Assembly (NCBI GenBank): GCA_947259645.1
Contig: CAMYND010000007.1
Location: 1-64,000, forward strand
Reading direction: 5' to 3'
Length of the DNA stretch: 64,000 nt
Source of the DNA: Thermodesulfovibrionia bacterium
Lineage (GTDB): Bacteria > Nitrospirota > Thermodesulfovibrionia > UBA6902
In this document: positions 53,047 to 58,824 of the stretch, in pieces
How positions within the stretch are numbered: the stretch's first letter is position 1
Layout of the letters: every line of letters begins with the position of its first letter
The notes under the pieces: model-generated
Databases searched by the model: none
Told to the model about the DNA's origin: nothing
Seen by the model: the letters and a program-made list of their open reading frames with translations, nothing else
Translations under genes and position numbers: made by a program

Positions 53047-53131
53047 AAAACCACAGAGGCACGGAGACACAGAGAAAGACATAAAGAGAGGAAAGGAACA
53101 TATTTATGCTCCGTGCCTCTGTGGTTTATCG
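53047..53131. repeat. Dispersed inverted-repeat element (CACAGAGGCACGGAGA family), copy 2
   Basis: Left aaaccacagaggcacggag; right ctccgtgcctctgtggttt, perfect complement. Confidence 0.85.
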
Positions 53132-53285: not shown

Positions 53286-53759
53286 ATGTTAGAGACAAAG
53301 TGTCAGAAAATCCTGGACAACTACTATGAAAACAGGGGGAGTGTTGTTTCAATCCTCCAGGAAATGCAGGAAGTCTTCGGTTACATCCGCGAGGATGCAA
53401 TTGAATGGTTTGCAAAAAAAATCAATGTTCCCTCAAGCAATTTTTTTGGGGTGGCAACTTTTTATTCACAGTTTTACCTGAAGCCGCGGGGGAAAAATAT
53501 TGTCACAGCCTGCTGCGGAACAGCATGCCATGTGAAAGGTGCTGAAGCTATTATAAACAGAATCAGAGCAGACCTTGCGCTTGCAGAAGGTGAGGACACA
53601 ACACCGGACGGGCAGTTCACAATGGAAAATGTCGCCTGCGTAGGCGCCTGCAGCATCGCTCCGGTCGTTCTGGTGAACAAGAAGGTGTTCGGGGGAGTAT
53701 CAGCTGAAAAAGCATCCGATATGCTCAAAGACTATCAAAGAAATGGTAAAGGTAAATAG
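53286..53759 (+). CDS. NuoE/HoxE-like 2Fe-2S subunit
   Basis: GVATFYSQFYLKPRGKNIVTACCGTACHVKGA...CVGACSIAPVV. Confidence 0.93.
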   Translation: MLETKCQKILDNYYENRGSVVSILQEMQEVFGYIREDAIEWFAKKINVPSSNFFGVATFYSQFYLKPRGKNIVTACCGTACHVKGAEAIINRIRADLALAEGEDTTPDGQFTMENVACVGACSIAPVVLVNKKVFGGVSAEKASDMLKDYQRNGKGK

Positions 53760-53760
53760 A

Positions 53761-55623
53761 ATGGCACTCAAGAAAAAAGCAGCATCGCAGGCAGGGAAAA
53801 AGGTTAAACCAAAAACATCAGCCAGAACAAAAACAGTTGCCAGGGGCAAAGGTCCTGCTGCAAAAAACCTTACGATTAAGGTTTGCGTCGGAACAGGCGG
53901 GCTTGCAGCAGGCAGCCAGGATGTAATCGATGAGTTTGGCAAGCAGCTCAAGGCCCATGGTATAAAGGCTGAAATTGCGAAGAAATGTGTCAACAAGACT
54001 GGCTGCCGCGGTTTCTGCGCCAAGGACGTTATCGTTGAAATTAATCAGAACGGGAGCACTGAAGTTTACCAGCTTGTAACCGCGGACAAGGTAAGCAGGA
54101 TCGTTGAGGAACATATTATCGGCGGTGATCCAGTAGACCAGTGGCTTGTCGGTCCTGACTATCATGCCTTTCATGACAAACAGACAAAGATCCTTCTCAA
54201 GCAGTGCGGGCAGATAGACCCCGAAAATATTCAAGCCTACCTGGACATAGACGGTTACAAGGGCCTGAAGAAGACCCTGTCACAGACCCCCTTTGAGGTA
54301 ATAGAGGAGGTCAAGGCATCAGGCCTTCGCGGACGGGGCGGGGCTGGCTTCCCGGCAGGACTGAAATGGGAGTTCTGCAGTATGTCTGACAGTCCTGAAA
54401 AATATATAATCTGCAATGCAGACGAGGGTGACCCCGGGGCGTTTATGGACCGGGCCATTATTGAGGGTAACCCCCATTCAGTCCTTGAAGGCATGATAAT
54501 CGGAGGGTACTCGATAGGTGCCAAAGAGGGATACATATATATACGGGCGGAATATCCCCTTGCTATCCAGAGGCTGGAAATAGCCATAACGCAAGCCAGG
54601 AAAAGAGGTTTTCTCGGGAAGAATATTCTCAAGAGCGGGTTTGATTTTGATCTGATTATAAAGCAGGGTGCAGGAGCCTTTGTCTGTGGAGAGGCCTCCG
54701 CTCTTATGCGCTCGATCGAGGGCAAACGGGGAATGCCGAGGGCCAAACTCTGGCGCTCAGCTGTGAAGGGCCTCTGGGACAAACCAACGGTCCTGAACAA
54801 TGTCGAGACCTTTGCAAATATCCCACTTATCATTGAAAAGGGGGCGGACTGGTATAAAGGATTTGGTACGGAAAACAGCACCGGAACAAAAGTCTTTGCC
54901 CTCACCGGCAAAATGAAAAACACCGGCCTCATTGAAGTGCCCATGGGTATGACGCTCAGGGAGATGATTTATGATATAGGCGGCGGCATGACCGGCAAGA
55001 AAAATCTGAAGGCGATCCAGACCGGAGGACCTTCCGGGGGCTGCATTCCTGCTGAGCATCTTGACATTCCGGTTGATTTTGACTCCCTTGCCTCTGTTGG
55101 TTCAATGATGGGGTCGGGCAGCATGGTTGTCGTTGATGAAGATACATGCATGGTCGATCTGGCAAAATTTTTTATATCCTTTACGCAGCATGAGTCCTGC
55201 GGAAAATGTGTTCCCTGCAGGATAGGAACGAAGAGGATGCTTGAGATACTGACGAGGATAACCGAAGGCAACGGGAAAGAAGATGATATTGACCTTCTCC
55301 TGGAACTGGGGAATGACATAAAGCACGCGTCCCTCTGCGGCCTCGGGCAGTCAGCTCCCAACCCGATTCTTTCCACGATCCGTTTTTTCAGGGATGAGTA
55401 CGAGGCCCACATTAAGTACGGGCGCTGTCCTGCAAATGCCTGTAAATCACTGCGCCAGTATCTTGTCAATGCAGAGACATGTAAAATGTGCGGAAAGTGC
55501 AGCCGGGTATGTCCTTCCGGCGCCATAATATGGGAGCCACGGCATAAAGCCGAGCTTGATAAAGTGAATTGTGTAAAATGCGGGGCATGCTACGATGCCT
55601 GCCCGTTTAATGCCATTTTGTAA
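53761..55623 (+). CDS. NuoF/HoxF-like NAD(P)-binding FMN/FeS subunit with C-terminal ferredoxin domain
   Basis: GLRGRGGAGFPAGLKWEF, CNADEGDPGAFMDR, ESCGKCVPCRIGTKRM, CKMCGKCSRVCPSGAI. Confidence 0.95.
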   Translation: MALKKKAASQAGKKVKPKTSARTKTVARGKGPAAKNLTIKVCVGTGGLAAGSQDVIDEFGKQLKAHGIKAEIAKKCVNKTGCRGFCAKDVIVEINQNGSTEVYQLVTADKVSRIVEEHIIGGDPVDQWLVGPDYHAFHDKQTKILLKQCGQIDPENIQAYLDIDGYKGLKKTLSQTPFEVIEEVKASGLRGRGGAGFPAGLKWEFCSMSDSPEKYIICNADEGDPGAFMDRAIIEGNPHSVLEGMIIGGYSIGAKEGYIYIRAEYPLAIQRLEIAITQARKRGFLGKNILKSGFDFDLIIKQGAGAFVCGEASALMRSIEGKRGMPRAKLWRSAVKGLWDKPTVLNNVETFANIPLIIEKGADWYKGFGTENSTGTKVFALTGKMKNTGLIEVPMGMTLREMIYDIGGGMTGKKNLKAIQTGGPSGGCIPAEHLDIPVDFDSLASVGSMMGSGSMVVVDEDTCMVDLAKFFISFTQHESCGKCVPCRIGTKRMLEILTRITEGNGKEDDIDLLLELGNDIKHASLCGLGQSAPNPILSTIRFFRDEYEAHIKYGRCPANACKSLRQYLVNAETCKMCGKCSRVCPSGAIIWEPRHKAELDKVNCVKCGACYDACPFNAIL

Positions 55624-55645
55624 TGAATGGTCAGGAGGAATAACT

Positions 55646-56119
55646 ATGCTAAGCAAAGAGCGGCTCAAGGAAATTAAACTCTTTAAGGGGCTTTCAGATG
55701 ATGAGATCGGAATAGTCGCGAATGTGCTGGATGAATCCCTGTATAAGAAAGGGGCCATAATCTGGGAAGAAGGCGCTCCGGAACAGGGCCTTCAGATTAT
55801 TGACCATGGTAAAGTGCGGATTACCAGAAAGACGAGTGAAAATCACCGGCAGGTCCTTGCGGTTTTAAAAGATGATAACTTTTTTGGAGAGCTGTCTTTG
55901 CTTGACGGCAGGTCTCATTCTGCATCGGCTGAAGCCCTTGAGGACACAAAAGTTTATATCCTGCACCGGAGCAAGATGGAAACGCTTCTGAAGGAGAGTC
56001 CTCTGACCGCCTATAACATCATGCGGGTATTGGCCATTGAGATCTGTGAGCTGCTTCGTCAGATGAATGCCAAGTTCATGGATATGGTTAATTATGTATG
56101 GGAAGCACGAGATGTATAA
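55646..56119 (+). CDS. Cyclic-nucleotide-binding domain protein without recognisable HTH
   Basis: LFKGLSDDEIGIVANVL...FFGELSLLDGRSHSASAEALEDTKVYIL; RBS aggagg. Confidence 0.88.
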   Translation: MLSKERLKEIKLFKGLSDDEIGIVANVLDESLYKKGAIIWEEGAPEQGLQIIDHGKVRITRKTSENHRQVLAVLKDDNFFGELSLLDGRSHSASAEALEDTKVYILHRSKMETLLKESPLTAYNIMRVLAIEICELLRQMNAKFMDMVNYVWEARDV

Positions 56120-56133
56120 CAGGAGGAAATGCT

Positions 56134-58824
56134 GTGACTGAAAATAACCTGAAAGTTACGATAAACGGCAGAGAGGTCTTATGCAGCAGGAATGAGACCA
56201 TTCTTGATGCTGCCAGAAAAGCGGATGTGAACATACCAACTCTCTGCTATGATGACCGCCTTGAGCCCTACGGCGGATGCCGGCTCTGTATTGTTGAGAT
56301 AAAAGACGTTCCGCGGCCGGTTCCTGCATGTACCACCCGTGTGAAAGACGGCTGGGAGGTCTTAACAGAAACTGTTGAAGTGCGAAGGATGAGAAAGAAC
56401 ATCCTGTCCCTGCTGCTTTCCAATCACCCCAATGACTGCATGAGATGTGAAGCCACCGGCAACTGCGCACTGCAGACCTACTCGTACGAATATGGAGTGG
56501 ACGGGGACCGTTTTGCCGGAGAGTCATGGAACCTCCCGATAAAAGATGACAACCCCTTTATTGTTTATGATCCCAACAAATGCATTCTCTGCGGACGGTG
56601 CGTGAGAATATGCAATGACGTGGTAATGGCCGGGACCATTGAGATGACCGGAAGAGGGTTTGATTCAAAACCTGATACCTCCTTTGGCAAGCCCCGTACT
56701 CTGGACAACTGCGAATTCTGCGGCCAGTGCGTATCCACCTGCCCCACCGGAGCGCTTATCGACAAGAAGGGGTGCGGTAAGGGACGTGCCTATGAAATGA
56801 AAAAGGTAAAAACTACCTGCTCCTACTGCGGAACAGGGTGCAGCTATTACCTCAATGTAAAAGAGGGAGAAGTGATAAAGGTCACCTCTGATTATGAAGG
56901 CCCGGTGAACAAGGGCAACCTCTGCATCAAGGGACGCTATGGATATGATTTTATCCACAGCCCCGAGAGGATCACGACCCCGATTATCAGAAAGGGAGAT
57001 AAACAGGTTGAGGCAACGTGGGACGAGGCGCTCGACCTGATCGCAAAGAGGTTCGGTGAGATCCTTGAGAAGTCCGGCCCAAGCGCATTAGGTGGTTTCT
57101 CATCGGCACGCTGTTCAAATGAAGAAAATTATCTTCTTTCAAAACTGGTAAGGACGGTGTTCAAGAGCAACAATGTAGACTGTTGCGCCCGTGTCTGACA
57201 CGCTCCTACTGTGGCCGGTCTGGCCACCAGTCTGGGAGCAGGTGCTGCTACCAATTCATTATCGCAGATGCCGGACATTGATACACTGTTTCTCTTTGGC
57301 TCAAACCCGACGGAAGCCCATCCTATTGTGTCGATCTATCTGAAGCAGGCCCTTCGCAAGGGTGCCAAACTTGTGGTCGGTGACCCGAGACAGACATGGA
57401 TGGCGAGGCGGGCCGATGTATGGCTGAACCTCAACCCCGGAAGCAACATCGCTCTTCTTAACGGTATCATTCATGTGATACTGAAAAAGGGTTGGGAAAA
57501 CAAAGAGTTTATCAAAAACAGGACAGAAGGGTTTAATGAGCTCAAAAAGAAGGTAAAGGAATATACGCCTGAAAAGGTTGAGAAAATTACGGGTGTCTCA
57601 AAAGAGAGGATAATTGAGGCTGCCCGCCTGTACTCGCAGGCAGACAAGGCGATGATCGTATACGGCCTCGGCGTTACAGAGCACCAGACCGGCACGGAAA
57701 ACTCCATGGCTATCGCCAATCTTGCTCTGGTCTGCGGCCACATTGGACGTCCTTCAACGGGTATCATGGCGCTGCGGGGACAGAACAATGTGCAGGGGTC
57801 ATCAGACCTTGGCCCATTGCCGGCGACGCTTCCGGGTTATCAGTCGGTTACCGATCCGAAACTGCGGGCGAAATTTGAACAGGCATGGGGCGTATCACTT
57901 TCCCCGGAGATTGGGCTCAAATCAGTTGAGATGCTGGACAAGGCAATTGAAAAACGGTTCAAGGGCCTTTTCATTCTCGGCGAGGACCCGGCACAGACAG
58001 ACCCCAATGCCCATGAGGTGAGGAAAGCGCTTGAGTCCCTTGAATTTCTTGTAGTCCAGGACATTTTTCATACAGAGACATCGAAATACGCTCACGTAAT
58101 TTTGCCGGGTGCCAGCTATGCTGAAAAAGACGGGACCTTTACAAACGGGGAGCGGAGGGTCCAGCGTATTAGAAAGGCCATCGAGCCTGTTGCCGGAATG
58201 GCGGAGTGGCAGGTCATCTGTGAAATAGCCACACGTATGGGTTACTCGATGCACTATGAACACCCATCCGAGATTATGGATGAGATCGCGAGTCTTGTCC
58301 CGATCTATGGCGGGATCAGCTATGAGCGACTGGAAAATGAAAGCCTTCAGTGGCCCTGTCCGGACAAGGACCACCCAGGGACTACAACGTTGTATACGGA
58401 CCTGTTCTCAAGACCGGGCGGGCTTGCAAAATTCATGGCCCTTGACCATAAAGGCCCGGGAGAAAAGACGAACAGAGAATATCCCTTAACGCTTATAACC
58501 GGAAGAGTTCGTGAGCATTACAACAATGGCTCAATGACGCGAAGAGTTCCGGAAATACTGGAAGTCCGTCCTGAGGAACTGCTCGAAATGAGCTCGGAGG
58601 ATGCGAAAAAATTAAAGATCAGCAATGGGGACATGGTTAAGGTGCTTTCGAAGCGCGGGAAGATCAAGGTGCGGGTGAAAATAACAGACCGTTCACAAAA
58701 GGGCAACGTCTTCCTCACCTTCCATTTTCCCGATGCACTGACGAACCTGCTGACATCTGAACACAGAGACCCTATAACCGGAACACCGGAGTACAAGGCC
58801 TGCGCGGTAAAAGTAGAAAAGTAG
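56134..58824 (+). CDS. fdhA: Selenocysteine-containing formate dehydrogenase catalytic subunit with NuoG-like N-terminal FeS domains
   Basis: NVDCCARV-(TGA 57196-57198)-HAPTVAG: reading frame continues across TGA into the 57211-58824 ORF; 2Fe-2S and 4Fe-4S motifs; TTCSYCGTGC; GTG start with aggagg. Confidence 0.95.
57196..57239 (+). promoter_or_regulatory. Bacterial SECIS element downstream of UGA
   Basis: gctcc...gtggcc-ggtct-ggccac...ggagc hairpin; GGUCU apical loop. Confidence 0.88.

Follow-up and report, generated by a model that had tools for sequence, protein, structure and literature searches.

The gene fdhA, which encodes a formate dehydrogenase alpha subunit, occupies positions 56134–58824 on the forward strand of the window, the 64,000-nucleotide stretch of contig CAMYND010000007.1 that was analysed. 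Three genes precede it on the same strand, in the order nuoE–nuoF (HydB/BfuB-type)–cNMP–fdhA. The first (53286–53759) encodes a NuoE/HydC (BfuC)-like [2Fe-2S] subunit with a PF01257 match of 149 bits, and is conserved 5′ of fdhA. The second (53743–55623) encodes a NuoF/HydB (BfuB)-like FMN/NAD and Fe-S subunit, recognised from its Pfam domains, and its best PDB matches are bifurcating HydB-type proteins. The third (55595–56119) encodes a 174-residue cyclic-nucleotide-binding (cNMP) domain protein that is conserved in the cluster. A Shine–Dalgarno-like CAGGAGG (56120–56126) lies 5′ of the GTG start codon of fdhA, its AGGAGG being 7 nt ahead of GTG 56134. A near-perfect long hairpin is also found 5′ of the nuoE-like gene, at window positions 53049–53125, with arms around GAGGCACGGAG; a weak match of this hairpin to a plant microRNA in Rfam was taken as chance.

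Under the standard bacterial code (table 11), fdhA appears as two ORFs in the same frame, one ending at 57198 and the other listed at 57211–58824. When TGA is translated as selenocysteine (Sec, U), the frame is open from 56134 to 58824, with a single recoded codon, U355 at 57196–57198, in the context CARV-U-HAPTV. No further stop codon or frameshift was found in this frame. A preliminary description of this DNA had named TGA 57196 as an in-frame Sec codon in that context and had proposed one protein of about 896 residues in place of the two ORFs; coordinates, codon and context proved right, and the joined frame has exactly 896 residues.

The joined protein matches TIGR01591 (formate dehydrogenase alpha subunit) at 898.4 bits, against a cut-off of 666.25, over positions 1–672 of the 672 in the model. 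It carries an N-terminal [2Fe-2S] domain, a NuoG-type [4Fe-4S] region, further [4Fe-4S] motifs and molybdopterin domains. Residues 7–894 align, in the same domain order, with 6tg9_A, the alpha subunit in the solved structure of an FdsABG-type, NAD-dependent formate dehydrogenase, and Sec355 faces a Cys in that protein. The motif UHxP, listed as the Sec motif of the FdhA family (PMC13188914), is present as VUHAP, and the TGA also stands opposite Cys in 10 Cys homologues. FdhA is 78–85% identical to its nearest named relatives, from Nitrospiraceae and Thermodesulfovibrionia genomes; in a search of plasmids for relatives, all matches fell below 60% identity. The GTG codon at 57211, only 12 nt past the stop, could in principle start a second, separate subunit. 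The ORF break, however, coincides with the catalytic residue, within the molybdopterin domain, and the Cys homologues are unbroken single chains, so that two subunits are highly improbable, a reading that was rejected on conservation.

A SECIS hairpin (57202–57239, forward strand) follows the UGA, supported by its fold, inverted repeat, covariation, synonymous constraint and comparison with Escherichia coli fdhF. Its upper stem (57211–57216 paired with 57222–57227) encloses the loop GGUCU (57217–57221) in the sequence GUGGCC-GGUCU-GGCCAC, with additional pairing beneath. Published criteria for bacterial SECIS elements give a loop of 3–9 nt with G in the first two positions, an upper stem of 4–16 bp, a distance of 16–37 nt from the UGA and a minimum free energy (MFE) of at most −7.5 kcal/mol (PMC13188914). 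The element in fdhA has a 5-nt GGUCU loop, a 6-bp upper stem and a spacing of 18 nt, and the MFE of −25.8 kcal/mol for a 61-nt stretch is within the published limit. Rfam returned only SECIS_3, below its gathering score (E 0.31); this sub-threshold match was not counted against the element, because bacterial SECIS elements vary (PMC13188914).

The two strands of the window contain 3,016 TGA trinucleotides, of which 22 are followed by a perfect 6-bp hairpin of bacterial SECIS geometry, and only TGA 57196 among those 22 has the loop GGTCT at 18 nt; the hairpin is therefore not a chance occurrence. The preliminary description had likened its GGUCU apical loop to that of E. coli fdhF, and the K-12 sequence does carry this loop, likewise 18 nt past the UGA and in the same frame. 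The two genes also share the context CCARV-U-H, whereas the base pairs of the stem mostly differ in sequence. The E. coli element has a bulged U on its 5′ side; the corresponding U is not unpaired in the fold predicted for fdhA.

The folding energy of the single hairpin gives a z-score of −1.33, which is weak evidence by itself, and it is the comparative evidence that carries the case for a SECIS element. The loop GGUCU is present in all 65 Sec genes with more than 60% identity, and all six stem pairs are formed in 62 of the 65. In ten of these genes, the third pair is U-A for G-C, a two-sided change that possibly reflects shared ancestry. Among the Cys genes above the same identity threshold (n = 6), three keep the loop and two keep the pairs. 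When synonymous variation was scaled by amino acid and compared between windows along the gene, those over the hairpin varied least among Sec orthologues (ranks 1–6 of 523 windows), and GCC-GGT-CTG at codons 361–363 was invariant in 57/57 sequences. Among Cys orthologues, the windows over the hairpin were mid-range (ranks 181–291 of 362), and with six such sequences the direction of the contrast is clear but its size is not.

At the site, TGA, TGT or TGC was tallied in 83 aligned genes. Three of these (L022, L025 and L026), distant molybdopterin paralogues from the same genome for which alignment at the site is unreliable, were left out. In the remaining 80 genes, the codon is TGA in 70, a count that takes in the window fdhA and its second genomic copy, and Cys in 10. 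Similarly, when 60 relatives were searched, the best match had exactly one internal TGA in nearly every case. The second Sec-type fdhA (L020; contig 18, 16401–19082) has a TGA in the same place and the same hairpin, and is about 73% identical; it lies directly 3′ of a nuoF-like gene, with no intervening cNMP gene. The close orthologues that encode Cys at the Sec position are L060, L064, L066, L072, L079 and L096. In L064 the stem is still present, suggestive of a recent change from Sec to Cys.

Standard gene calling does yield two ORFs, as would be expected if the TGA were a true stop that arose by mutation or sequencing error and left a pseudogene or two fragments. Such an origin is very unlikely, and was already refuted by conservation of the TGA: the same codon recurs in many genomes and in the second copy of this one, in a frame that is otherwise uninterrupted and is followed by a constrained SECIS element.

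The preliminary description had named absence of the Sec machinery as grounds for abandoning its reading. This ground does not apply, for family searches of the genome (3.41 Mb in 131 contigs, 99.55% complete) found the complete set: SelB (369 bits, cut-off 242), SelA (615 bits, cut-off 268) encoded directly 5′ of SelB on contig 11, SelD (323 bits, cut-off 125) and tRNA-Sec (72 bits, gathering score 47), with anticodon TCA as assigned by ARAGORN. The gene for this tRNA, selC (L011), is on contig 83, apart from selA–selB; in some Nitrospirae, selC is embedded in or overlaps selB (PMC13188914). The selD gene (L008, contig 94) likewise contains an in-frame TGA, in the active-site loop GGUAAKLGP; this fits UxxK, the motif given for SelD of the Sec type (PMC13188914). 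SelD is itself a selenoprotein, and so is likely to be mis-annotated too.

A genome-wide reassignment of UGA, to Trp for instance, would also explain one in-frame TGA that is read through, but can be dismissed almost outright and was rejected on conservation: the 896-residue frame holds just one TGA, the neighbouring and paralogous genes that were searched mostly lack internal stops, the exceptions (FdhA twice, and SelD) belong to selenoprotein families already known to carry Sec at these sites, tRNA-Sec(UCA) is present, and residue 355 aligns with Cys rather than Trp. The earlier observations of split ORFs, TGA and hairpin are confirmed, and their interpretation as a Sec-type formate dehydrogenase is supported. 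It is almost certain that the locus encodes one selenoprotein, FdhA, in which UGA is read as selenocysteine.

By analogy with E. coli FdhF (formate dehydrogenase H), SelB-dependent recoding is expected. SelB, carrying Sec-tRNA-Sec(UCA) and GTP, would bind the hairpin in the mRNA, with its GGUCU loop starting 18 nt 3′ of the UGA, and UGA 57196 would then be decoded by the ribosome as selenocysteine, inserted in the cell at residue 355. Sec355 would ligate the metal of a bis-pyranopterin cofactor, which we infer to be Mo or W, and may help to oxidise formate or reduce CO2, the direction of catalysis being likewise inferred. Unlike FdhA, FdhF lacks NuoG-like N-terminal Fe-S domains, and it acts in formate hydrogenlyase. 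From the N-terminal Fe-S clusters of FdhA, electrons would pass to the co-encoded HydB/HydC-like (BfuBC) module.

These neighbours extend the earlier identification of a Sec-type FdhA, in that together with them it would form a formate dehydrogenase of HydB/BfuB type linked to NAD and ferredoxin, FdhA being the alpha subunit. In the NuoF-like protein, residues 41–625 match HydB-type proteins (728 bits to 7q4v_B). Its C-terminal ferredoxin-like cysteines are invariant in 40/40 relatives. The BfuABC family is defined by extra Fe-S clusters that are tied to bifurcation, and in Type 1 Fdh-Bfu the pterin site is fused to BfuA (PMC9304861). The criterion for BfuB is five Fe-S clusters (an N-terminal [2Fe-2S], an FMN-proximal [4Fe-4S] and C-terminal extras), together with the [2Fe-2S] cluster of BfuC. 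By this extra-cluster rule and the HydB-type match of the NuoF-like protein, the complex is probably a Type 1 Fdh-Bfu, and most likely works as a soluble formate dehydrogenase linked to NAD(H) and ferredoxin.

Two sets of known enzymes offer close parallels. As in the Type 1 Fdh-Bfu of Carboxydothermus hydrogenoformans (BfuABC, PMC9304861), the pterin active site is fused to a BfuA-like N-terminus and the partner genes are BfuB- and BfuC-like. The cluster described here differs in that bfuB and fdhA are separated by an additional cNMP-binding gene, and in an altered cysteine pattern in the N-terminal domain of BfuB, and its bifurcation is predicted from genes. In the selenium-containing bifurcating formate dehydrogenases of Gottschalkia acidurici and Clostridium aceticum (PMC7911925), a Sec-FdhA is likewise encoded with HydB/HydC-like subunits; HylA is a separate protein in G. 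acidurici, but the corresponding part is fused to FdhA both in C. aceticum and at this locus.

The altered pattern lies in the N-terminal [2Fe-2S] domain of the NuoF-like protein (residues 48–92; 53884–54018), which has CVGTGG where HydB has CxGTxC. An extra cysteine, Cys82, is conserved in 35/40 relatives, and a change of cluster ligand is possible. The apparent change of one N-terminal [2Fe-2S] ligand in this BfuB-like subunit, and the best alignment of the alpha subunit with the NAD-dependent FdsA type, would be consistent with a Sec-FdhA complex that depends purely on NAD and does not bifurcate electrons. This is the less probable assignment, though a serious one. The beta subunit scores 728 bits against the bifurcating HydB type but at most 396 bits against non-bifurcating formate dehydrogenase beta subunits and NuoF, and the beta subunit of the 6tg9-type enzyme lacks the C-terminal 2×[4Fe-4S] extension whose cysteines are present here; such additional Fe-S clusters are linked to bifurcation (PMC9304861). 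On this beta-subunit homology, the enzyme probably bifurcates electrons.

Of the 39 loci in the genome collection that retain the nuoF neighbour, 27 have the cNMP gene placed between it and fdhA. PF00027 was the only domain found in its 174-residue product, and a DNA-binding domain was not found. It is conceivable, if rather unlikely, that this protein, which most clusters of Nitrospirota type share at this place, is a dedicated regulator or extra subunit through which a nucleotide signal gates a selenium-dependent bifurcating formate dehydrogenase; no description of such a role was found in a small sample of the Fdh-Bfu literature.

FdhA is the most widely distributed bacterial selenoprotein family and was among the earliest in which a Sec-encoding UGA was recognised (PMC13188914). 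Recoding of fdhA at this locus is a textbook case, among the best-known examples, that mainly needs correct annotation, and it leaves the understanding of selenocysteine decoding unchanged. The corrected annotation has a single catalytic selenoprotein where two fragments stood, and the genome holds two FdhA copies of this kind. Across Nitrospirota-type genomes, FdhA of the Sec type is documented together with partners of the bifurcating type, a combination on which little was found in the literature.
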